Shown: positions 1 through 13,133 of the stretch, one piece after another | Position numbering within the stretch: the stretch's first letter is position 1 | How the letters are laid out: each line of letters opens with the position of its first letter | Origin: an uncultured Gammaproteobacteria bacterium | GTDB taxonomy: Bacteria > Pseudomonadota > Gammaproteobacteria > Arenicellales > JAANXG01 | Length of the DNA: 59,583 nt | Assembly (NCBI GenBank): GCA_947258975.1 | Contig: CAMYKK010000021.1 | Coordinates: 1-59,583 of the forward strand | Direction of reading: 5' to 3' | The notes under the pieces: model-generated | Told to the model about the DNA's origin: nothing | Seen by the model: only the letters and a program-made list of their open reading frames with translations | Database searches by the model: none | Program-made: the position numbers and the translations under genes

Positions 1-3000
1 ATTGGTGGTTTCGAAGTCGAGGTTGGTGTTGTCCAGGACGGTGATCTCACCGGTCGAGCTGTTGATGGTGAAGATGCCATCGGTATTGCCGGCGGTGATC
101 GAATAAGCAATTGCGTCGCCGTCTTCGTCGGTGTCATTGCCGGTGTTGGCGTCATCGACGTTGTAGACCGAAGTCCCATTCACGGCGTCTTCGTTGACGA
201 TTGTCGTGGCATTGACGATCAACGGGGCCTCGTTCACGTCGTTGACGTCGATAGTGATGGTGGCGGTGTCGAGCAGGGTTCCGTCGTCGGCCTCGATGGT
301 GACGACGTGCTGGCTGGCGGTCTCGAAGTTCAAATTGGTGTTGTCGGCGATGCGGATTTCGCCGGTGTTCTTGCCGATGACGAAGATGCCGGCGGTATTG
401 CCGGCGACGATGCTGTAGATGATCGTTTCCCCATCGACATCGGTGTCGTTGCCGGTGTTGGCCTCGTTGATGTCATGCACAATAGTGCCGTTGGCCGCGT
501 TCTCGTCAACGGCTACGGTGGCGTCGTCGATCAGCGGCTGATCGGGCACCGGGTTCACGGTGATGGTGGTAGTGGCGACGTTGGAGTCCGCCGCGCCGTC
601 GTTAAGTTTGTAGGTAAAGGTGTCGACGCCGTTGAAATCGGCCACCGGCGTGTAAGTGAATGTGCCGTCCGCGTTGAACGTGAACGAGGCAGCGTTGCTC
701 GGAGCGGAGACAAGGATGGTCTGCAGTGGATCACCGTCAGCATCGCTATCGTTCATCTGCACGCTGGCGATGATCGGCCCGGTCTCCGGGGCACCATGGG
801 TAATAAACCCGTCGGTCATGGACAGATACTGGGCCTTGATCCAGTCCGCGGACCGGCCGGTAGTGGCGATCCGTGTTTCATCGATGCGGCCGTCGAAGAA
901 TTCGGCGCTGCCATCGTCTTCGCTGCCCAGGGCGTTGCTGGTGGAGTTGGTTTGTGGCGTCGACAACCTATTGAACGCCACGTCGCCCACCGTTGCTTGG
1001 GCCACGCCGTCGACGTATACGGTAATGCCGTCGTTGGCGTAGTCGATGACCGCAGTGACCCAATGCCACGACCCCACCGACAGCGGGCTGGCGGTGGTGG
1101 TCACGAAGTTGACATCGCCACCTCCGTCGATGCTGCGGCCGAACACCTCGATCTCGCTGCCGTTGCGTTCGATCCCGGCGCGGGAGATGGTGGTCGGAGC
1201 GCCGCTGTTGACCGACAGGGAGACGATCTGGCTGGTTGCCGCGACCGTATCCGTATTGATCCACGCGGAAAGCGTGACCTCGATAGCGGAGTTGATGAAG
1301 GCGCGATCCGCGCCCAGGTCGATGTATTGGTTGGACGCCGCGTCGAAGGCCTCGGCATTGCCGATAACGCCGGCGCTGTCCGTGCTTCCCTGGTTGGTGG
1401 CATCGAATGCATTGATGGTTGAGTCGGCAAACGCGCCCGCGGTCAAGGCCGGATCCTCGTTCAAGTGATAGATGCCCCGATAATTACTGCTCCAAACCGC
1501 CTCCGGATCTTGGCTGTCTGCGGCCGCGGCGTTGCCGTAGTACATCCAGATGGAATCTGTATTCGACAGACCGTCGATCTGGGGGACCTTTACCCACACG
1601 TGAGAGTTTCCCGACTCGTCCCATCGTTCGACCTCGTGCGCCAACGGTGTGCCGTTCGCGTCCACGAAGCGCAGGTCCTGGCCACTGTCTTGGGTCAGGG
1701 CGTAGTCGATGTTGGTACTGTTCAGCGTGACCAGGACGGGAAAGTCTCTGAGATCCTCGGTCTGCGCCGAATTATCGAAAGTCAGAGTCTGCCGCCGAGC
1801 CCAGTCGGTGTGCCACCAGTAAGCCTCCAGCGTGTCGTCTTCGTCCATGGTGTAGCTGTCGTCGGCGGCCACCGGCGCTTGATTACTGCCCGCTTCGCTG
1901 GAGGTGACCAGGGTCAATCCGTGGACGTTTTCGGTGACGTCCTCGAGTCCCACCGTGCTGCCGTCGAAGAACATCCTCGCGGTGCCCACCGTAGTGTTAT
2001 CGCCGGTGGCGGTCACGTTGAGGACGAAGACATCCTCCGCGTAGACTTTCAGGGAGTTGTCCCCGACGCCACCCCACTGTCCGCCTCCGATGTCGTTACC
2101 GTTTACGCTCAACAGGATCTCGCCGGCGAACACCACTTCGTCCCCAATGACGGCGGTGGTCTCGATGAGTTCGACCCCGGTCAGTGGCCGGGCGCGATGG
2201 ATGTTGTCGTTGCCGTCGATGAGGATGGTGGCGGTCCCGCTGGTGGTGCCTTGTCCCAAACCGCCCGTACCCGTGGGATCGAAGTGATACACGTGCCCCC
2301 ACTGCGGGTCGACGCTGTCCAGCAACAGCAACGTCCCCGCTTCCAGAGTGGTGTCGCCCACGGTCGTGGATTGCTCCACCAACGACACCCCGGAGACGCT
2401 CGTCAACGGCGCCGGTAGGCCGGCGGAGTCGATGAGCATGCTGAAGGTACCGGTGCTGTAATCGCCGGCCGTGTCCGGACGGAACGCGAACACGTCGCCG
2501 GCTTGCACTTCGAGGGTGTTGCTGCTCTCCAGTTCTTCGAAGCCGGCCGTGGACAGCAGCAGGTCCCCCGACTGCAGCGCCACTTGTCCGCCGCTGCCTC
2601 CCACGGTGATGTCGTTGGTGACGTGATGGATGGCATCGATGTCGACGCTGGCGTCGCCGGCGTAGGCGCCGGTGAGCTGGTCGAACAAGTCGAAATTGGC
2701 CAGCGAACTGAAACTGCCGCTGGCGGGGGCGCCGAAGGTCCTGGCGGGTCCGCCAAGTTCGAGGATCTCGCCGGCGCTCCAGCCGTTGGGCAGACCGTTG
2801 GCGCCCGGCGGGATGACGTCGAAATGGGTGCTGATCCAGAGCTCGTTGTCAATCCATTCGTAGGCGCCGATATCGGTGACCGCATCGTGCCGCTGCAGTC
2901 CGCGCTGATCGACGCCCGGGGCGCCGGTGTTGTCGCCCGCATCGATCGCCGGGCTGTCGCTGGCCAGGGCATGGGTGCGGGTCGGGCCGCCGTTGTCTTG

Positions 3001-6000
3001 CAGCGGGCCGAGCCGCGCATCAATGGGACTGGCCGCGTTCCCGACCTGGTCGCCGTTCACGCCGTCGGTGAAACCGCTCGAGCCGGTATTGTCGCCGATG
3101 AGGTTATGCCCCAGCGAGTTGAACGAGCCATCGACATCGTCGCCGGTGTTGCCGGCAACAATGGTATTGCGCAGATCGGTCTTGGCGCCGCCGTTATCGT
3201 GGATGCCGCCGCCGCTGCTCAATGCGGTGTTGGCGGTAATCGTCACGTTCTGCAGGGTCGCATCACCGTCGGTTCGGATACCGCCGCCGTCTTGGTTCGC
3301 ACTGTTTCCGCTGATGGTGACGTTGGTGGCCCAGAGTTCGCTGCCGTTTGCGTTGTAGATGCCGCCGCCGTGGACCCTGGCGGTGTTGCCACTGATCTCC
3401 ACGCCGTGCAGAACCAGGTTTCCGGTGTTGAAAATACCGCCGCCGTTGTTGTCTGCGTAATTGCCGGTAATGGAGACATCGGTGATGCTAAGGTTGGCCT
3501 GGTTGCGAATGCCGCCGGCGTTGTTATCGCTGGCCCCGTTTTGAATCGTGAGTCCGTCGATGCTGGCGTTAGTCGCTCCTGCCTTGAGCTCGAACACGGT
3601 GTCGAGACCGCCACCGTCGATGATGGTCAGACCGGCGCCAGCGCCGCTCAGATTCACGCTTTCGGCGATATCCAGGTCGCCGGTCAGGGACCCATCCTCA
3701 CTTTGCCCGGCGATGGTGAGGGTATAGGTGCCCTGCGGCACGTAGATGTCGTCTAGGCCGCTGGTATTGTTGGCGGCGATAATGGCCTCGCGCAGGGATA
3801 CGCCGCCGTCTGCGCCGGGGTCGGCGTTCAGGGCCTCGATCGAGGAGGTGTCGCCGTCAATGGTATCGTCGGTGGTGGTCACCACCAGGTTGTTCGCGAC
3901 GTCCGTCACCGTGACATCAATCAGCTGCTGGTCGCTACCGCCGTTGCCGTCGTCGGCCGTCACCTCGACTTGGTATACGTTGTCGGCGTCGGTATCCGCC
4001 GGCGACTCGAAGTCGGGCGCGCTGTTGAAGCGTAGGTCCCCGCTGCTGCTATCGATAGAAAAGCTCGTCGCGTCCGTACCGCCGGAGATCGAATAGGTGA
4101 CGGTATCGCCGATATCCGGGTCCGTCGCGGTTACGGTCGTGACCACGGTGGTGTTCTCGGCCACGCTAACACCGGCGGTGGCCCCGCCGCCGTCGGAGGT
4201 GATCACCGGCGGCGTCGCATAATCGACCGAGAGCAACGGACGCGCGCCGACGCTCGAATTTTCCGAGGACAGGAACTTGACATCCTCGGTCATCGAGTCG
4301 GTGATCAGGGCCCAGCCGAAGTTGGTATCGCCGTCGGCCCACGCCTGCAGAGAGGCACCGATGTCGAACACCTTCGATCCCGACGTGTCGGTGGCGACGG
4401 TGTCGTCGGCGACCGCCAGGGCCTCCAGGTCATTGGTCTGGATGCCGTTGGTCATCGAGTTCCAGGTCGAGGTCTCGTCCCAATTCACCACGATGCGGTG
4501 CATGCTCACGCTCGAACCCGGGTCGCCTTCTTTTCCCGCCGGAATGAAGAGCGTCAGGGTCGCCGAATTGATGGTCGCGCCCAAGGGAATCTGGCTGGCG
4601 CCGTTGCCGAAGATGTCGTCGAAGCGGATCAATCCTTCCTTGAGATCGGTCTGCAGTTCAATATCGATCGCGTCATGGGGCGTTGAGGGATTGTTCGACT
4701 GGATTTCCGTGTCCTGGGTGCCGGCGTAGCCGCCGACACCTTCCTGGAAGTTGACCACCGCCATGCGCGCGACCCAGGTATCCTGCACCCCGGCGCCGAC
4801 CGCGATGGGGGTCTCGATGACGCCGGTTTCATATTCCAGATCCCAGTTGCCGCCGAGGCTCGCGTGGCCGGTGTCGTCGGCGCTGGCGGCCACGTCGGCG
4901 CCGGTCAAGGCGCTCAATCCTTGCACCAATTGCCGGCCGGCCTCGGATTCGGCCAGGTCGCAGCCATAGATCAGCAGGTCGCCGTTCTCGTCGAAGGCCC
5001 GGTTCCAGCCGGCGATTTCGCCCGCGTAGGCGTCCAGGTTGTCGAGCCGCAGCCACATGCTGCCGAGCTTGACCGCGCCGTCGGCGCCGTGGGACAGGAT
5101 GTGCACACCGTTCAGCCCTTCGAAATCGGCCAACTGCTCACCGATCTGCTCGATGCCGTTGCGTGTGTTGTCGAGCACAAATATCTGCGTGTCGCCCAAC
5201 ATGGCGGCGCCGTAGGTATGCAGATCGAACAGCACCGGGTCGTTCTCGGTTGCCGCGGCATCGAATCCGGTTGCGTCGCCGGTTTGCGGCATCACTGAAG
5301 AAGCTTCGCCGGATACGTCCGTCGTGACGGCCCCGGTTCCAGTGGCGCCGGAGGTGCCGTCGCCCGCAGCGGTATCCGTTGCGCTTGCTTGGTCGATGAT
5401 GCCTTGCAGCAGCCCCTCATAGTCGGCCACGGTGGGATCGACGAAGACCACTTCCTGGATGGCGGTTTCTGCCGGCGCATCCGTTGCCATGGACAGCGGG
5501 TTCCCGCTGCTGTTTTCGGGCGTTGCCGGCTCGCCGTCCGCTACCCCGGCGGCAGCGATTTCAGCAGCCGGTGGATTGGCGGTGTCTTCCGGGTCGGTAG
5601 TCTGCGCAGTTGCGTCGAGCGTGTTTCCGATTTCTGTCGTGCCGGTAGATGTGTCGAGTGCGGTTTGCGAAGCGATATTACCCAAGTCAGCTTCTGTCAG
5701 CGGTGCGCCGCTCGATCCCTCATCCGTCCCGGCGTTTGCAGCAGATATACCAGGTGCGGGGGGCGGGGATTCTGAGTCCGGTGGCTGAGATGTGCTGGGG
5801 TCGCTCCCGCCGGTGTCGGTATTGATAACCGGGATGGTGTCTGTTGCAGGCGTGATGTCCGCTTCGGACGTGGACCCGGCATCGCTCTGGACGATGGCGG
5901 GCTCCGGAACCGGGTCCGTTAAGTCATCGGTTATATCGATGGGTAGATCGGCGGAAAGCAACAACCGCGGTTCCAGTTCCTCGAAAATAACCGGCAGCCG

Positions 6001-6030
6001 CCTTCCACGGCGTATTTTTCGCTTCTTCAT
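1..6030 (-). CDS. Giant LEPR-XLL / DUF4347 / cadherin-repeat surface protein (N-terminal 2010 residues, runs off the left edge)
   Basis: The reading frame is open from an ATG at 6030 to base 1 with no stop, so the C-terminus lies outside the window. Residues 1-28 hold a very basic stretch ([11 protein letters not shown]) and the [10 protein letters not shown] motif of LEPR-XLL proteins. A low-complexity Ser/Thr/Asp/Ala-rich linker follows. Next come a DUF4347 domain (about 188-405, HILSHGADG), a DNRLRE-like module (about 424-600), a cadherin-like domain (about 604-714) and a right-handed beta-helix beginning SLREAI (about 717-1043). Three related repeats follow (about 1055-1375), then DUF2341 (about 1398-1510), a LamG-like domain (about 1520-1735), a VCBS/Big-type domain and cadherin-like repeats of 104 residues. 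Such proteins are predicted to be secreted, adhesin-like surface proteins. It is the last gene of a unit that also encodes a SecA-like ATPase and HlyD adaptors, with a 181-bp gap after the HlyD gene. No strong ribosome binding site precedes the ATG. Confidence 0.9.
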
Positions 6031-6211
6031 CCTCAGACACCCCAACTCGGCACCGACATGCATGCCCACAGTTAAAGTGTAGTAACAAAGCGCGGTTTAT
6101 CCAGTCGCGACACGTAGAAAATAGTCGCCAAATCATAGAGTTAAATTAAGATGCGCCGGGTTGACCGAGCTTAACGGGATGCCGGCGGCCAAGCGGGTGT
6201 GAAACTAGGTA

Positions 6212-7105
6212 TCAGGACTCGGGAATGACTCGGTATTGCAGTTCGGCTTGAATCGGATCCGGCTTCGGGGATGCGGCGTCGGATGCAAAGGATTCGGGAT
6301 TGTGAAATTGAATTTTACACCGCAGACCACTGGTTAACCGGTAGTCGGGATTGGGCAGTTGCAGCCTGATTCTGAACGTCCCGCTACCGGCGTCCAGGAC
6401 CGGATCGACGGTCATGACCGTGGAATCGTATTCGCCGCCCACCGGTGACTCAGGAAGCACGGTCGCGGGCTGCCCGGTCTTTATGGTGCCAAACAACTCA
6501 ACTGGCGCCACGACTTCGACTCGAAGTGGATCGATTTGCGCGAGCCTGGCAATGGGGCGGTCTTCCACCGACTCCCCCGGGTTGAGATAACGATCGACCA
6601 CCACACCGCTAATCGGGCTGTGGATGGTTTGCAGGTTGAGAACTTCCATTGCCCGATTCAGTTCCAGCTCGGCGAGCCGTTTGTTGTCCCTCGCCTGTTG
6701 CAGTTTATAGCGTGCGATCTGTGTTTCGGTCTCGACACGATCAATATCATGAACCGGCACGACCTTTTTGGCGTGCAGCTCAGAGATGCGCTGCTCATTG
6801 CGTTGACCGAACGCAACATTGATCTCATGGGAGTGGATTTCCGCCATCATCGCGGCGCGAGCGCGAGCTTGATCAACAGCGGCCTGCTCTACGCGCGAAT
6901 CAAGTTTGGCGACTACCTGACCGGCGTCCACCTGGTCACCTCGTTCGACGAACAGTCGGTCGATAATACCGTCCGCCCGGCTGCTGAGTTCCACCAGGAC
7001 ATTGGGCTCGATCACACAATCGAGTTCTTGCACCTGTGCTGCGGCCGGTAACGTGGGCAGCAGCAGTAACAGCGTGTAAAACTTCACTAGGTCGCGTTTT
7101 TTCAT
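6212..7105 (-). CDS. Periplasmic HlyD-family membrane fusion (adaptor) protein
   Basis: 297 residues. A Lys/Arg n-region, a Leu-rich core and an AAA-Q cleavage site around residue 23 make a standard signal peptide. A half lipoyl domain (about 38-70, SSRADGIIDRLFVERGD), an alpha-helical hairpin (about 75-155) and the second lipoyl half (HSPISGVVVDRYLNPGE) follow, then a beta-barrel domain. This is the fold of RND and type I secretion adaptors that bridge inner and outer membrane components. It starts 20 bp after the SecA-like gene and is transcribed toward the giant protein gene, so it probably belongs to the same transcript and serves export of that protein. It is short for an RND adaptor (usually 350-400) and no RND pump or TolC gene is beside it. 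Family assignment is firm; the role is inferred from position. Confidence 0.88.
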   Translation of the reverse strand: MKKRDLVKFYTLLLLLPTLPAAAQVQELDCVIEPNVLVELSSRADGIIDRLFVERGDQVDAGQVVAKLDSRVEQAAVDQARARAAMMAEIHSHEINVAFGQRNEQRISELHAKKVVPVHDIDRVETETQIARYKLQQARDNKRLAELELNRAMEVLNLQTIHSPISGVVVDRYLNPGESVEDRPIARLAQIDPLRVEVVAPVELFGTIKTGQPATVLPESPVGGEYDSTVMTVDPVLDAGSGTFRIRLQLPNPDYRLTSGLRCKIQFHNPESFASDAASPKPDPIQAELQYRVIPES

Positions 7106-7125: not shown

Positions 7126-9111
7126 TTATTCCAACGGTCCGGTAAAGGCCAGCATCTGCTTTGTTTGCTCGTCAAACTTCACGAGGTTACGGCGCAGCCG
7201 GGCGTCGCGGTGTTCGGCGATGCGCTGCGCGAGGTCCATAATCCACCCAAACCGGACCGGCAGATGCCGTTTCCCCAGATATCTTCTTGTTTTCAGTATA
7301 GTACGTGGCAGGGCGGCTGCTAGCAGTTCGTCCTCCAGGGAGGCGATGACGACGACATAACCCGGATCGCCCTGGCGGCCGCAGCGCCCGAAAAGCTGGC
7401 GATCGATGCGGCGGGATTCGTTGCGCTCGGTGGCAATCACGTGCAGGCCGCCGCTCGCGGCGACGCCGGGACCCAGGCGGATGTCGGTGCCGCGCCCGGC
7501 CATATTGGTGGCCACCGTGATCGCGCCGCGGGTGCCCGCATTGGCGATGATCTCGGCCTCGCGCCGGTCTTGGCGCGCGTTGAGTACCTCATGGTGCAGG
7601 CCGGCATCCGCGAGCAGTTTGCTCAAGCGCTCCGATGCGGCAACGGAGCGCGTGCCCAAAAGCACCGGGTGACCGCCGGCGTGCAGCTGTTTGATGCGGG
7701 CCACGACCGCGGCCCATTTCGCGGCAGCGGTGGCATACACCAAATCGGCGCTGTGCCGGCGGCGAACCGGGCGGTGGGTTGGGACCCGCACCACTTGCAG
7801 GGCGTACAGCGACCACAGCTCGCGCGCTACTTCTAGCGCGGTGCCGGTCATACCGGACAGGCGCAGGTAGCGGCGGAAGAAGCGTTGGTAACTGGTGCGC
7901 GCGAGGGTTTGTTTCCGCGGGGTGATCTCGCAGCCTTCCTTGACTTCGATTAGCTGTTGCAAGCCCGACTCCCAGGAATGATCCGGCAAGGTCCGCCCGG
8001 TGTTGCTGTCAATGATGTGCACTTTTCCGTCAGTCACCAGGTAATCCTGATCCCGGCGATAAAGATGATGGGCACACAATGCCTGTTTGATCAGCGGTTC
8101 CCGCCGCCGATGGTCGTGCCAGAAATCGCCCAAGCCGGAGTATTCTTTATCCAGCCGCGCGTGTCCGGACCGCGTGATTTCAATTTCCCGGTGCCGGCGG
8201 TGCACCCGAAAATCGCGTTTTTTGTGTAACTGTGTCGCCAGAGCCAGGGCGTCTTGGTAGATGTCTAACTGCGGTGCTTCGGCGATGCTTTGTGAGAGGA
8301 TAAGCGGCGTGCGCGCCTGGTCGATCAGCACGCTGTCGGCCTCATCGACGATGGCGAAACAGAGCCCACGGAGCAATGCCTGGCGCTTCATATCATCACC
8401 CGCGCGGAGCCGGTCGAGTTGCCGATCCAGCCGGCTGCGGCGCGGGCCCGACGACACGCGATCCCTGAGGTAGTCAAAGGCCACCTGCTTGCTGGTGCAG
8501 TAGGTAATGTCGCAGCCGTAGGCTTGGCGCCGCTGATGGGGTTCGCTAACCTTCTCGGTGACGATCCCCACGGTGAGGCCGAACCTGTAAAAGATCGGCG
8601 CCATCAGTGCGGCGTCGCGCTCGGCCAAGTAATCGTTGGCGGTCACGATATGTACGGGTATGCCGGCCAAGGCGGCGGTGCAGGCAGGCAGCGTGGCCAC
8701 CAATGTCTTGCCGTCGCCGGTTTCCATCTCCGCCAACATACCGTTTAACAACACCCAGCCTCCCATCAACTGGGTGTCGTAATGCCGCATCCCCAAAGTA
8801 CGGTGTGCGGCCTCGCGGACTAATGCGAAGGCCTGTGCGGCGAGCGGTTCTTGTAATCCCTGATGGACCAGACTTTGCCTCAGTGTCCGCACGCTTAGCG
8901 CGAAGGCGCCGTCATCGAGAGTATGCAACTGCTTGGAACACGCGTTGACCTGGGAGACGAATCGTTTTGCTAGATACAGGCTGCGGTTGGATAAACGGTG
9001 CCCGAGACCACTAACGGTGTGTATCGCCTGGTCGACTTTGCCGCGTGGCGCGGGCTCGTTCTCCGGATAACTGCCGAGCGTCGCACCGGGCCGCAGTGCG
9101 TGACTATACAT
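7126..9111 (-). CDS. SecA-like preprotein translocase ATPase, short accessory form
   Basis: 661 residues from an ATG at 9111 that overlaps the stop of the upstream M50 gene by 8 bp; a longer in-frame ATG at 9192 would lie inside that gene. All helicase motor motifs of SecA are present: Walker A METGDGKT (about 126-133), Walker B IVDEADS followed by LIDQARTPLILS (about 252-270), a preprotein cross-linking region, SGMTGTA, TNMAGRGTDI (about 533) and GRCGRQGDPG (about 575). The protein stops early in the helical scaffold, so the helical wing and the Cys-rich C-terminal SecB-binding tail of housekeeping SecA (about 900 residues) are missing. This suggests a second, specialised SecA. Its position between two membrane fusion protein genes and upstream of a giant surface protein points to a dedicated export role. 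The motor assignment is secure; the dedicated cargo is inference. Confidence 0.9.
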   Translation of the reverse strand: MYSHALRPGATLGSYPENEPAPRGKVDQAIHTVSGLGHRLSNRSLYLAKRFVSQVNACSKQLHTLDDGAFALSVRTLRQSLVHQGLQEPLAAQAFALVREAAHRTLGMRHYDTQLMGGWVLLNGMLAEMETGDGKTLVATLPACTAALAGIPVHIVTANDYLAERDAALMAPIFYRFGLTVGIVTEKVSEPHQRRQAYGCDITYCTSKQVAFDYLRDRVSSGPRRSRLDRQLDRLRAGDDMKRQALLRGLCFAIVDEADSVLIDQARTPLILSQSIAEAPQLDIYQDALALATQLHKKRDFRVHRRHREIEITRSGHARLDKEYSGLGDFWHDHRRREPLIKQALCAHHLYRRDQDYLVTDGKVHIIDSNTGRTLPDHSWESGLQQLIEVKEGCEITPRKQTLARTSYQRFFRRYLRLSGMTGTALEVARELWSLYALQVVRVPTHRPVRRRHSADLVYATAAAKWAAVVARIKQLHAGGHPVLLGTRSVAASERLSKLLADAGLHHEVLNARQDRREAEIIANAGTRGAITVATNMAGRGTDIRLGPGVAASGGLHVIATERNESRRIDRQLFGRCGRQGDPGYVVVIASLEDELLAAALPRTILKTRRYLGKRHLPVRFGWIMDLAQRIAEHRDARLRRNLVKFDEQTKQMLAFTGPLE

Positions 9112-11236
9112 TGAACCGTGTGAGGAAAAGTTGGCGCAGGCGCCGATACCACTGCCGTGCCAGGGGTTCGCGGCCGTGTTCGAACAGCGCATAGACGCGG
9201 CCGCCGAGTTTATCGACCGCTATGGGCAGTTGCAGTCTGACCTCAAAGATCCCCTCGAGCGTGGTGACGCCGTGGATGTCGCCGGGGTCCACCGGGAACG
9301 GTCCCCCGCCATGGGGGCCTAGAGCGGGTCCCGGCAGCCGGTTGGATGCGGCGGGCACCTGGCGGATTATTTTTGCGGCGACCACCGTATCCAGGCGCTC
9401 AGCCAGACGGACTTGTACTGCGTGGGTTTTCCGCCGCACCAGGCCGATGTCGGCCTGGGGAATGGCAACACGGACCGTGGGGCGGTCGACATCCAGAACA
9501 TAACCCACCAGATCTCCCTGACGGAGAAATAAGCCGGGAAGATTCTCCGGTCGCTCGACAATAAACACGCCATCCGCGGGACTGTGCAGGAGCAGGGAAT
9601 CCAGCCGCTTTTCTGCCGCATTGAGATCCGCCTGGACGACCGCGATCTCCTCCTTGACAAGATCCGCCCGCACCTGCTGATGCGCGCCTTTGAGGGCCTC
9701 GTATCGGGCCGCGAGTCCCAGCAGCCGCGCCGCAAGTATTCGCACCTCGGCATCGAGAAATACATCTTCCGTTTCTATCAACGGTTGTCCCTGTTTCACT
9801 AACTGTCCGGGCGTCGTAAGCAAGCGTTTAATGACACCATCACCCGCGGCTCGAACTTCGGATTGCTCGGGCGGTGCAATAATTCCTTCGGCGGTGGTCG
9901 TAAGTGGAAACGGCACCACGAGGAGCAAGCCCGCCACACCGAAAACCAGTGACGCGGTGACCGATAGCGCGCGAAACCGGTTTCGCTGCACCCGCGGGTG
10001 CATGAACACAAATGTGAATTGCTTGCCGATGGGGATGATAAACAACGTGGTCGCCGCCCACACCGCTAAGATGATACCGACGGCAAGGTACTTCTCGGCG
10101 ACGAACAGGATGATAGTGAGCAGGATAACGATTCGATAGAGATATGACGCGATGCCGTAGCAGATGAACCAAAAACGTTCACCCGGCGCCATGACGGGAG
10201 ATTTTGCATCACGCAGGCCGAGCAGATAGTACTGCACGAGGTATCCCAAGTAATTCTTGGAGCGCGTCGCCAGGTTGGGGATATCGATGGTGTCGGCAAA
10301 CACATAGTAGCCGTCGAAACGAAGCAACGGATTGCCGTTGATGAACACGGTTGACACGGCACCGATGAGCATAACGTTGAAGGCGAGGGCGCTGACCACA
10401 CCGGGTTCCACGTTCAGCCACAGTAACAGTGCCAATGCTGCCAGGAACAGCTCCACCATGATGCCCGCAGCGCCGACCACTATGCGCCGCCGTTTTTCCG
10501 GGAATCCGGTGGCGGACGAGGCGTCCACATAAGGGACGGGCAACAGGGCGATCAATATGATTCCCATGTCGTGGACTTCCCCTCCCCAAACTTTAGTGGC
10601 CAGACCATGCCCCAATTCATGCAGGGCTTTGACCAGCGGATAGAGCAGCCACAGCAGAAACAAATTCTGTGGCGATAGTGCTCGATCGACGATGCCGTCG
10701 GTTAGTTGCTCCCAATGGGCGGTGGCCACGGCGGCCGCAGTGGTAATCATCACCATCCAGATAACGATGCCAGCAAGACCAAACACCGGGCGCGTCAGCG
10801 GCACGAGCCGCCCCAGCAAGCGGTCCGGATCGAGCAGTGGAATGCGGATCGCCAAGGGGTTCTTTAGGGTCCGCACCCGCTTTTGGTGCTGCTGCTGAAC
10901 ACGGCGTTCGAACAACGCCTCCATGTCCGGCGTTATATTTGATTGCAACGCATCCGCGGAATGGAGCCGGGCCAAGAGATCGATGGTTTCGTCTTGCGTC
11001 GGGGCATTGTCACCGAGGGAATCGTTGGCTGCATCCCAGATCTTTTGCACGGAGTGCGAGCCATCCATGAGGCTGATCAAGTGATGGGCGGTGGGAGAGA
11101 ACCGGAAGAACCGCCCTGACACCTGGTTGTGTAGAACGTACCACGTCTGTTGGCGAAATCGCTGTGGTTGAATCCTTACGTGGACAGCGAGACGGGGGCG
11201 CAATGCCGACACGCGGTACCAGAGCGGGTTTTCCAT
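9104..11236 (-). CDS. PqqD-like / M50 site-2 protease / HlyD fusion membrane protein
   Basis: 710 residues from ATG 11236. A TTG at 11248 with GGGAG seven bases upstream is an equally plausible start; the longer ATG at 11305 overlaps the preceding gene by 44 bp. The N-terminal 90 residues look like a PqqD-type winged-helix (leader-binding) domain. Several membrane segments follow, with the zinc protease motif HELGH at about 206-210 and the second metal site in NGNPLLRFDGYY near 308. After further membrane helices a biotinyl-lipoyl/HlyD region with coiled coil occupies the C-terminal third. Related M50-HlyD proteins such as YydH occur in peptide maturation and export loci. It may recognise and process the N-terminus of the giant protein or anchor the export machine. 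The domains are visible; the substrate is inference. Confidence 0.85.
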   Translation of the reverse strand: MENPLWYRVSALRPRLAVHVRIQPQRFRQQTWYVLHNQVSGRFFRFSPTAHHLISLMDGSHSVQKIWDAANDSLGDNAPTQDETIDLLARLHSADALQSNITPDMEALFERRVQQQHQKRVRTLKNPLAIRIPLLDPDRLLGRLVPLTRPVFGLAGIVIWMVMITTAAAVATAHWEQLTDGIVDRALSPQNLFLLWLLYPLVKALHELGHGLATKVWGGEVHDMGIILIALLPVPYVDASSATGFPEKRRRIVVGAAGIMVELFLAALALLLWLNVEPGVVSALAFNVMLIGAVSTVFINGNPLLRFDGYYVFADTIDIPNLATRSKNYLGYLVQYYLLGLRDAKSPVMAPGERFWFICYGIASYLYRIVILLTIILFVAEKYLAVGIILAVWAATTLFIIPIGKQFTFVFMHPRVQRNRFRALSVTASLVFGVAGLLLVVPFPLTTTAEGIIAPPEQSEVRAAGDGVIKRLLTTPGQLVKQGQPLIETEDVFLDAEVRILAARLLGLAARYEALKGAHQQVRADLVKEEIAVVQADLNAAEKRLDSLLLHSPADGVFIVERPENLPGLFLRQGDLVGYVLDVDRPTVRVAIPQADIGLVRRKTHAVQVRLAERLDTVVAAKIIRQVPAASNRLPGPALGPHGGGPFPVDPGDIHGVTTLEGIFEVRLQLPIAVDKLGGRVYALFEHGREPLARQWYRRLRQLFLTRFNV

Positions 11237-11261
11237 GTGATTGTGCAAGTCTGGGCTCCCG

Positions 11262-13133
11262 TCAATGCCACCAAGACCACAGCGACAGCCGTAGCCGGTC
11301 GACAATACCGTGCGTCCAGATCCAGATCCGCCGCCGCGTTCCCGCTTCTATCTTGCCGACTCCGTGCATGCCGGGCCGCAGCAGCGGGCCGCTTTTGTCC
11401 AACCGGGCTTCCACACGGAACAGGTTCTGACCCTCGAGGGCGGTTGATATCGGTGTCACTCGCTCCACGGTAAAGTGATGCACATCGTTGGGCAGACCCG
11501 CCAAAATCAGCTGGCCCGATTGGCCCGCGTGCACCGCGGCGATGTCACGCTCGTCCACATTGAGGAGGATGCGGTAGGAATTGAGGGGAGCCACTTCGAA
11601 CAACACCTGCCCTCTTTGCACCGGGGCGCCTAGAGATTGACTGAGATCACCGCTGACCACGATGCCGTCGATGGGCGCAGCGACACGGGTACGACTGAGT
11701 TTTTCCGCGACCAGCGCAAGTTGGGCATCGGCTTGATCGAGCTTGGCCTTGAGCATGCTGATGCGAGACCGGTCGTGGGTGGCCAGGGCTTCCCGGTATT
11801 CTTTTGCGAGTTTGGCTTTCTCCCCCGACAATCCGGTGTGCTCCAGGCTGAGTTCCCGGTCTTCCAAACGGCTCATTACCTGCCCCGCGCGCACCAAATC
11901 ACCGGCGCGTACCGGGGCCTCGGCAAGATAGCTGTCGAAGGGGGCAATGACTACGCGCTGTACCGTCCCTTGCAGACGGGCCTTGGCATCGATTCGGTAC
12001 GCGCTTTGACTAACAGAGAAAACTACGACCAACGCCGCGGTGAGCACCACCACGGCCGTTCTCCAAACCTGAGCTCGGCTGCCGAGCGGCGCGGCCAGCC
12101 AGTCTTTAATTGTGGCGATTATTTTTTTTAGCAGCGAGCGTTGTTCGCGGCGCTTGAAGTCAAGGATGGGACCCACAAGGGAAGCCGTATATTCACACAG
12201 ACTGACGGTGTCGGCATCGAATGGCTGTTCCCGGGTACGTTCCAGGACCAAAGCGCCGATGGTGCGACCGTTATGACTCATGGGTACGGTACACACGGCG
12301 CTCGCTCCATATTCCCGGGCCAGCCTTGCGTGGGCGGTGGACAGAGCCGGCATACCCTCTGCGCTGGGCGGGAACAGCACACTGGCGTCTTGGTTCAGCG
12401 CTTCTTCGATGGTGTTGCCGAGCGTGCGGACCAAGTTGGTTTTATCTTCGATCTGTACCGTCTGCGAAATTGCCTCGATTTGCACGTTATGGCCGCGCAT
12501 GAAACCAAGGCTGACACGATCGCAACCAAGACGATTGGTCAATTCGGTGGCGACCGCCATCGCCGCGGCGCCAAAGTCATATTGATCGAGGGCCTTGGCA
12601 AGGACATCAACCACGGTGAGTAGGCGCTGTTCGAGTGGATTGGCGTCGTGGGTCATCAACATTTCGAGCCATGCGGCGCCCCATTGCAGCACGCGAATTG
12701 CGGCGCGCTGATTCTTGGCCGGACGGCTGGTGATCTCGGCGGCCACCGCACCGGTCAAGGCGCCGTTGAGCAGAACGGGGCAGGCGACGATGTCGTGCAT
12801 CCGTTCTCCCGGCGGCGAGCCCCGTTCTCCATTGAGCCGCGGACGGCGTTCGCGCAGGGCTTGCAGCGCGGCATCGAGCAGGGACGCATCCACATCGGTG
12901 TCCTCGGGCCACCGGGCGATGGGATGATGGGCATCGGAGTCCGCTGCGCCGAGCACGACAACGGCGCGATTGACTCCCGACAACATGCTGCACTGCAGGC
13001 TCAACCAGGTGCGAGTGAGTTCAGATACTCCTGCCCGTTGCGCGCTGCGGGGTGTGGAACTCGACCCATGAGACGAGCGCCCGGGGCCCGGCGTATTACC
13101 GAGTTCTGGTGCCTCGTGTTTGCGTTCTGCCAT
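11262..13133 (-). CDS. GAF-domain / HlyD-type membrane fusion protein
   Basis: 623 residues; ATG 13133 is preceded by GGAG at good spacing. Residues 36-160 resemble a degenerate GAF-like domain and about 165-345 a better one (ELTNRLGCDRVSLGF). A single membrane helix lies at about 365-385, then a lipoyl half (APFDSYLAEAPVRAGD), a coiled coil, the second lipoyl half (RVAAPIDGIVVSGD) and a beta-barrel region. The GAF part would be cytoplasmic and the adaptor part periplasmic, an unusual combination that could let a cytosolic signal gate an export complex. It is the first gene of the minus-strand unit ending in the giant LEPR-XLL protein. No GAF ligand can be deduced from sequence. Confidence 0.82.
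   Translation of the reverse strand: MAERKHEAPELGNTPGPGRSSHGSSSTPRSAQRAGVSELTRTWLSLQCSMLSGVNRAVVVLGAADSDAHHPIARWPEDTDVDASLLDAALQALRERRPRLNGERGSPPGERMHDIVACPVLLNGALTGAVAAEITSRPAKNQRAAIRVLQWGAAWLEMLMTHDANPLEQRLLTVVDVLAKALDQYDFGAAAMAVATELTNRLGCDRVSLGFMRGHNVQIEAISQTVQIEDKTNLVRTLGNTIEEALNQDASVLFPPSAEGMPALSTAHARLAREYGASAVCTVPMSHNGRTIGALVLERTREQPFDADTVSLCEYTASLVGPILDFKRREQRSLLKKIIATIKDWLAAPLGSRAQVWRTAVVVLTAALVVVFSVSQSAYRIDAKARLQGTVQRVVIAPFDSYLAEAPVRAGDLVRAGQVMSRLEDRELSLEHTGLSGEKAKLAKEYREALATHDRSRISMLKAKLDQADAQLALVAEKLSRTRVAAPIDGIVVSGDLSQSLGAPVQRGQVLFEVAPLNSYRILLNVDERDIAAVHAGQSGQLILAGLPNDVHHFTVERVTPISTALEGQNLFRVEARLDKSGPLLRPGMHGVGKIEAGTRRRIWIWTHGIVDRLRLSLWSWWH

Follow-up and report, generated by a model that had tools for sequence, protein, structure and literature searches.

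The closest described counterpart of the leader reported here is the LEPR-XLL domain (NCBIfam NF012209, LEPR-8K), which occupies the same N-terminal place in giant proteins and whose entry names a domain with no machine or receptor attached. In Planctomycetes, the motif RRLxxExLExRxLLA has been proposed as an export signal (Studholme 2004, cited in PMC8567305); according to that article, T. immobilis has 52 genes with the related motif LxLExLExRxxP, of which 20 were detected and 8 only in fraction S3, and 8 of its 10 longest proteins carry the motif (PMC8567305). The Planctomycete motif, modelled as PF07595, resembles the leader of our locus in its basic stretch, in ExLExRxLL(A/S), in its position at the extreme N-terminus of very long surface proteins and in the presence of an RRE-M50-HlyD gene, while it differs in having LED instead of LEP and A instead of SAD; a Planctomycete genome may hold many motif proteins, with 44 matches at E<=0.5 in genome G507. 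RREs bind RiPP leader peptides. TbiB1 and lasso B1 have been solved with their leader peptides, and the fold of these RREs and of PqqD is predicted to be common to the N-terminal domain of the fusion protein described below, although here the proposed client is thousands of residues long and the proposed outcome is export. Type I and MacAB- or RND-type tripartite exporters share HlyD-type adaptors with our locus and TolC-family genes with its relatives, whereas no ABC or RND pump is found here among the operon genes and the proposed signal is N-terminal, not C-terminal. Finally, SecA2 accessory Sec systems encode a second SecA beside a giant surface-protein client, as does our operon; in contrast to SecA2, the SecA-like protein found here is without wing, finger and tail, stands apart from ten housekeeping SecA and is missing from some loci.

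The locus lies in a 59,583-nucleotide stretch of DNA (the window) on contig C21 of a 5.49 Mb draft genome, a contig that ends inside the gene for the giant and leaves the C-terminus of this protein beyond it. The genes follow each other on the minus strand: a GAF-HlyD adaptor (11262..13133, from domain matches), a fusion of a PqqD/RRE domain, an M50 site-2 protease and an HlyD part (9104..11305, from domain matches, alignment and an AlphaFold model), a truncated SecA-like ATPase (7126..9192), an HlyD/RND-type periplasmic adaptor with a Sec-like N-terminus (6212..7105, from domain matches and hydropathy) and the giant LEPR-XLL protein (1..6069, from its ORF and domain matches), whose frame is still open at the edge of the window, where the contig also ends. 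The giant runs for 2,010 codons up to this end and displays choice-of-anchor Q, cadherin, Big_9, Laminin_G_3, DUF2341 and POMP-type repeat matches. As in type I secretion, an HlyD-type adaptor is present; among the five window operon genes we found neither an ABC exporter nor any ABC or RND inner-membrane pump. TolC-family genes occur in the operons of relatives, and no TolC gene is in view in the window, whose contig ends inside the giant.

A frequent order on the plasmids of relatives is giant, DUF3467, GAF/HlyD, PqqD-M50-HlyD, SecA-like and HlyD (Pontibrevibacter). TolC is added in Methylosinus; in Pseudosulfitobacter there is no DUF3467 gene at this place and a SapC-family gene stands between the fusion and the SecA-like gene; HlyD precedes GAF/HlyD in Mesorhizobium, and in Thalassospira marina the operon set includes TolC and no SecA-like gene. 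The small DUF3467 protein is conserved beside the GAF-HlyD or HlyD gene, mostly after the giant (L168 11836-12117, L174 12766-13071, L167, L170 and L171), and might serve the cargo as chaperone or partner. At L126 (9578-10009) and L127 (9713-10144), a separate 143-codon ORF that matches part of the fusion, and which we take to be its RRE part, sits beside a shorter M50-HlyD ORF. The window genome encodes three further giants with ALEPRxMFDGA-type N-termini, on contigs C69 (above the NF012209 cut-off), C6 and C54 (both below); their clusters contain TolC, HlyD, GAF-HlyD and a 25%-identical fusion, without SecA.

The leader of the giant spans residues 1-28 (5947..6030, minus strand), as delimited by translation, the NF012209 match, conservation in congeners and hydropathy. 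Its translation from an ATG start is exactly the 28-residue peptide of the sequence-only reading, and the core motif occupies residues 16-28 (5947..5985, minus strand), E17 being the acid at -2 that marks class A. Because GTG 6069 and ATG 6063 are also in frame, the start of the giant is uncertain. That a short N-terminal motif lies at this place was borne out by a match to NF012209 at residues 15-29 (22.5 bits, cut-off 17), which makes the window giant a member of the family, and by conservation: in four congeners, the window genome among them, 90% of positions are invariant over residues 10-30 and 13% over residues 31-130, which indicates strong selection on the leader segment. E at +1, R at +3 and an acid at -2 are each present in 35/35 class A N-termini, in lists of class A and B that were sorted by eye, by motif, and that by themselves prove nothing.

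We then consider how the motif is distributed relative to the fusion. Among 397 Pseudomonadota genomes, with thresholds of E<=0.005 for LEPR-XLL (46 genomes) and E<=1e-18 for the fusion (85 genomes), the fusion is encoded by 45 of the 46 LEPR-XLL genomes and by 40 of the 351 LEPR-negative ones (Fisher p=2e-34, relatedness ignored). The single LEPR genome without a fusion has its match in a 64-codon frame. Fusions were assigned to class A at >=300 bits to the window fusion, to class B when closer to the C69 fusion, or to the rest. In 38 of the 40 LEPR-negative fusion genomes there are only lower-scoring fusions (class B or other), whose motif the profile scores weakly, and a LEPR match is present in 33 of the 35 genomes with a class A fusion. 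This near-obligate co-occurrence with the fusion of the operon lends good support to the idea, raised from the letters of the DNA, that the motif is a private signal.

Beyond NF012209, two motif subtypes (LLSAD and MFDGA/LLDAA) follow two fusion subtypes. Among neighbouring giant/fusion pairs with a known N-terminus, for which motifs and class labels were compiled by hand, the motif class given by the acid at -2 equals the fusion class in 34/34 class A and 18/18 class B pairs (52/52 in total): the acid two residues before LExR is found in all 34 class A giants and in 0/18 class B giants. Position +7 is S (31), N (2) or D (1) in class A and D in 18/18 class B. G066:C39, with its fusion off the contig, was classed B from its GAF/HlyD/TolC genes, and G441 because it scores low against the window fusion; the giants of G245:C7 and G329 are on the opposite strand, some 10 kb away from their fusion. 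The comparison omitted giants on contigs other than that of the fusion, the linked giant of G172 and giants that share the contig of the fusion but lie far from it (G358, the second giants of G127 and G498, the third giant of G114 and L085 of G172). It also omitted G211, which has a class B fusion and whose N-terminus, seen later, MALEPRVLYDGAA, agrees. In G114, a genome with two class A fusions, a further giant has a class B-like motif (L274); fusion scoring covered two candidates per genome, and thus a class B fusion in G114 is possible. The lower-scoring fusion places are represented by 40 fetched loci out of a larger number. Motif and fusion could also covary by shared descent without contact.

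The sequence-only reading had placed a leader-binding domain in the operon, and the best candidate receptor is the N-terminal domain of the fusion (10928..11203, minus strand), which displays an RRE-like fold in the predicted model and in structure searches. The AlphaFold model of the window fusion, from a 79-sequence alignment, has a pLDDT of 93 and contains the three-stranded sheet and winged helices of an RRE; residues 12-103 resemble two RREs solved with their leader peptides, TbiB1 (5v1v, Z 10.3, 3.0 A over 87) and lasso B1 (6jx3, Z 10.2, 2.8 A over 84). Since GdmN (Z 10.6) and Rv2067c (Z 10.2) obtain similar VIA-align scores, the RRE-like fold alone is no proof of leader binding. The PqqD HMM matches the window fusion weakly (E 0.011) and the L168 fusion above gathering. 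Residues 442-697 resemble MacA/MexA adaptors (Z 13-15). In the M50 part, the HELGH metal site (10607..10621, minus strand) has an HExxH that is invariant in 79 sequences (H206, E207, H210), as is the distal Asp ligand, D308; no M50 structure is among the matches listed in the structure search with the fusion model, which has no bearing on the fold of that part. Judging from the model, the RRE domain of the fusion is the likeliest receptor of the leader.

Altogether, the sequence comparisons are best explained by a dedicated exporter with its own N-terminal leader, and we consider it probable, with some reserve, that the basic stretch and (F/L)ExLExRxLLSAD form an export leader which the RRE of the fusion reads, with an adaptor/TolC conduit and the SecA-like protein as a helper. 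In the cytoplasm, the PqqD-like RRE domain of the inner-membrane fusion would bind the leader, and the giant would then be threaded through an envelope-spanning conduit composed of the membrane part of the fusion, both adaptors (HlyD and GAF-HlyD) and an outer-membrane channel of the TolC type. At loci that have it, the truncated SecA-like ATPase may act as an unfolding or pushing motor with no say in cargo choice; the site-2 protease, and in many cargoes also DUF4347, would probably remove or release the leader end. This explanation is weakened by the lack of an ABC transporter as energy source where the SecA-like gene is absent.

The alternative that survives best, though we judge it unlikely, is that the motif is a retention, anchoring or processing tag, the giant crossing elsewhere while the RRE/M50 protein grips and then cuts its N-terminus. 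Such a role would suit a fusion that is a protease with an intact metal site and a motif followed by adhesin-like repeats, and would also suit DUF4347 (residues 272-419, 4774..5217, minus strand), which comes after the leader and a variable stretch and has a predicted caspase-like fold. The best match of the DUF4347 model is Tce1 (9qpe, Z 12.0), with CHAT, legumain and autoprocessing domains following at Z 5-7.6, in the range of common arrangements; C129 is invariant and H86 conserved in >=90% of sequences (n=35), and the fetched loci hold 39 DUF4347 stretches, some in overlapping loci and one being that of the window. By fold and His/Cys dyad, DUF4347 is thus predicted to be a clan CD (caspase-like) cysteine protease; that it processes its own protein is a guess. 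Against a tag, an RRE ahead of the first membrane helices would normally be cytoplasmic (presumed topology) and meet the uncleaved N-terminus before export, and no other exporter gene is present among the five operon genes.

Somewhat more doubtful is a role of the private SecA-like protein as both reader of the leader and motor that moves the giant across, by way of SecYEG or of a private channel. The protein matches PF07517, PF21090 and PF01043 and retains the DEAD motor, the P-loop and the preprotein cross-linking domain; most of the 53 SecA-like sequences aligned keep the Walker motifs, and a SecA-like gene adjoins the class A fusion at 66 of 70 loci, a contig end accounting for one of the four exceptions. 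It is adjacent in 42/45 Pseudomonadota loci (window included), 8/9 plasmid loci and 16/16 Planctomycetota loci, the latter figure holding for high-scoring fusions because the 20 places were drawn from the top of a 148-genome fusion search. However, the alignment to solved SecA stops at residue 608 of 783 (3jv2, best alignment), and in alignments to solved SecA chains the protein is without the helical wing, the two-helix finger and the C-tail, which, by the domain limits of SecA, lie past the aligned part. Class B giants have a related leader, yet a SecA-like gene was found beside 0/32 fetched class B fusions; at other fusions the count is 6/32, four of these being 6-8 kb away. Three class A loci retain motif and fusion without the SecA-like gene, and in G273 and G386, drafts rated 100% complete with a class A motif, a genome-wide search at E<=1e-10 found only one full-length SecA each, a search that a very diverged copy could escape. 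Some copies are strongly degenerate, Walker A being unrecognisable and Walker B altered in five of the 53 sequences.

Because the class A leader is kept at loci without the SecA-like gene, the leader goes with the fusion rather than with the SecA-like gene. The idea of a private SecA as reader of the leader, which had been advanced from the operon layout, finds no support, given these three loci, the class B loci and the unrecognisable Walker A of some copies; when motif conservation is set against SecA-like presence, as had been suggested, it is the RRE-M50-HlyD fusion that the motif tracks instead. SecA as specificity factor was accordingly rejected as the main reading, motif and fusion staying class A where the SecA-like gene is missing, and the truncated protein is probably accessory to the dedicated exporter that we favour.

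SecA-like proteins form a separate group: in a tree of 45 SecA-like rows and ten housekeeping SecA of both phyla, with no SecA2 included and a root set for drawing only, a single branch (support 100/100) divides the two sets. The search of the window genome yielded just two SecA proteins, a full-length one and that of the window. Strongly diverged SecA-like genes remain in place in the operon at L041 (13213-15138), L093 (8048-9850), L122 (3946-5811), L123 (3418-4902, cut by the contig end), L124 (10085-12037) and L242 (11057-13009). Walker A is unrecognisable in the first five, in an alignment that long branches make uncertain; L242 is seen only as a long tree branch, and L169 is a fragment with a gap at this place. 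The diverged genes may encode pseudo-ATPases with a kept structural role. SecA-like proteins are annotated 'prepilin peptidase' at L167 (16195-18111) and L172 (17095-19119), and elsewhere DEAD/DEAH helicase or SecA.

Far less probable is a degenerate ordinary Sec or Tat signal peptide. The leader does have a basic n-region, twin Arg at residues 10-11 and an LLLSA that looks like a short h-region, and some class B leaders reach an 11-residue Kyte-Doolittle mean of 1.94 (class B average 1.57), little under the 2.17 of the operon HlyD. The best such mean in the first 60 residues of the giant is nevertheless 1.51, with other class A leaders averaging 1.33 (maximum 1.73), and conserved E, E and R lie within the only hydrophobic part. 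By hydropathy, no uncharged h-region of ~7-15 residues as in Sec/SPI signals was found, acids and Arg lying inside, nor was a Tat-like one, the RR being followed by EELEPR. For 19-residue stretches the highest mean is 0.67 within the first 60 residues and 1.38 over all 2,010, compared with 2.2-2.4 for membrane helices in the fusion and in GAF-HlyD; this measure does not tell the giant from the signal peptide of HlyD (1.37). No membrane-helix-like stretch was detected by Kyte-Doolittle in the leader or in the 2,010 residues in view. Hydropathy thus agrees with the sequence-only reading that there is no normal signal peptide and no membrane helix after it; together with the charged conserved residues it led us to reject an ordinary Sec or Tat signal, which would also sit poorly with the strong co-occurrence with one machine. 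It is just as improbable that leader and machine co-occur merely as one mobile or inherited operon, the leader having a role unrelated to the fusion: the operons are on plasmids in several Alphaproteobacteria and the statistics ignore relatedness, but motif subtype tracks fusion subtype and some LEPR giants and the machine of their genome are on different contigs (e.g. G138, G126; draft assemblies).

The operon is present in a second phylum, the Planctomycetota. A DNA pattern for FExLEDRRLLA returned 30 stretches: 24 with Planctomycete titles, 4 titled 'bacterium', 1 from an alphaproteobacterial MAG, and one from Halomonas (L176) that looks like a chance match. For 20 of the 30 the genomes were examined, and 19 of these 20 encode the fusion. 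Planctomycete fusions are often clustered with GAF and HlyD genes, a SecA-like gene being present in 4/20 loci; at L246 and L247 motif protein, GAF, fusion and SecA-like gene stand in a row. Across 148 Planctomycetota genomes, the fusion occurs in 43, PF07595 at E<=0.05 in 36 and both in 22, most PF07595 matches being below the curated cut-off, which 5/148 genomes pass. The fusion is found in 22/36 genomes with a match and 21/112 without (p=4e-6), and at E<=0.01 in 10/17 and 33/131 (p=0.008). The association is thus weaker than in Pseudomonadota: the motif is present but no fusion was matched in 14 genomes, and the reverse holds for 21, which disfavours a tight link between motif and fusion in this phylum. 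The search at E<=0.05 replaced a strict motif model (A1), dropped as too strict since it matched 6/148 genomes, 4 of them with the fusion. The window giant itself has no match to PF07595 (Planc_extracel) at E<=1. From these comparisons, Planctomycetes appear to carry the same operon, and a related tag with the same machine.

We regard it as a serious but still tentative possibility that these loci represent a distinct secretion system, present in at least Pseudomonadota and Planctomycetota, in which an RRE/site-2 protease/adaptor fusion reads LExRxLL and replaces the type I ABC pump, an optional motor being a SecA paralogue that lacks the finger, and which would be the missing machine for the Planctomycete motif proposed in 2004. 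The LEPR-XLL domain name and the Planctomycete motif were already known; an open-access literature search (titles and abstract starts) returned no paper linking the two to each other or tying the motif to an M50/HlyD/SecA-like cluster. If true, this would give some of the longest bacterial proteins, with frames up to 19,427 codons, a candidate receptor and a candidate machine, would join a domain that NCBI has named, and to which no machine is assigned, to the export signal proposed in Planctomycetes, and would mean that RiPP-type leader recognition is used for secretion. The longest frame among the matches listed, an open frame of 19,427 codons, has its LEPR-XLL match at G169:C115:112865-112924. 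At L223 (12920-17151), near a fusion and a SecA-like gene, a Planctomycete ORF combines a QLEDRVLFDA leader with DUF4347, mixing class A and class B features.
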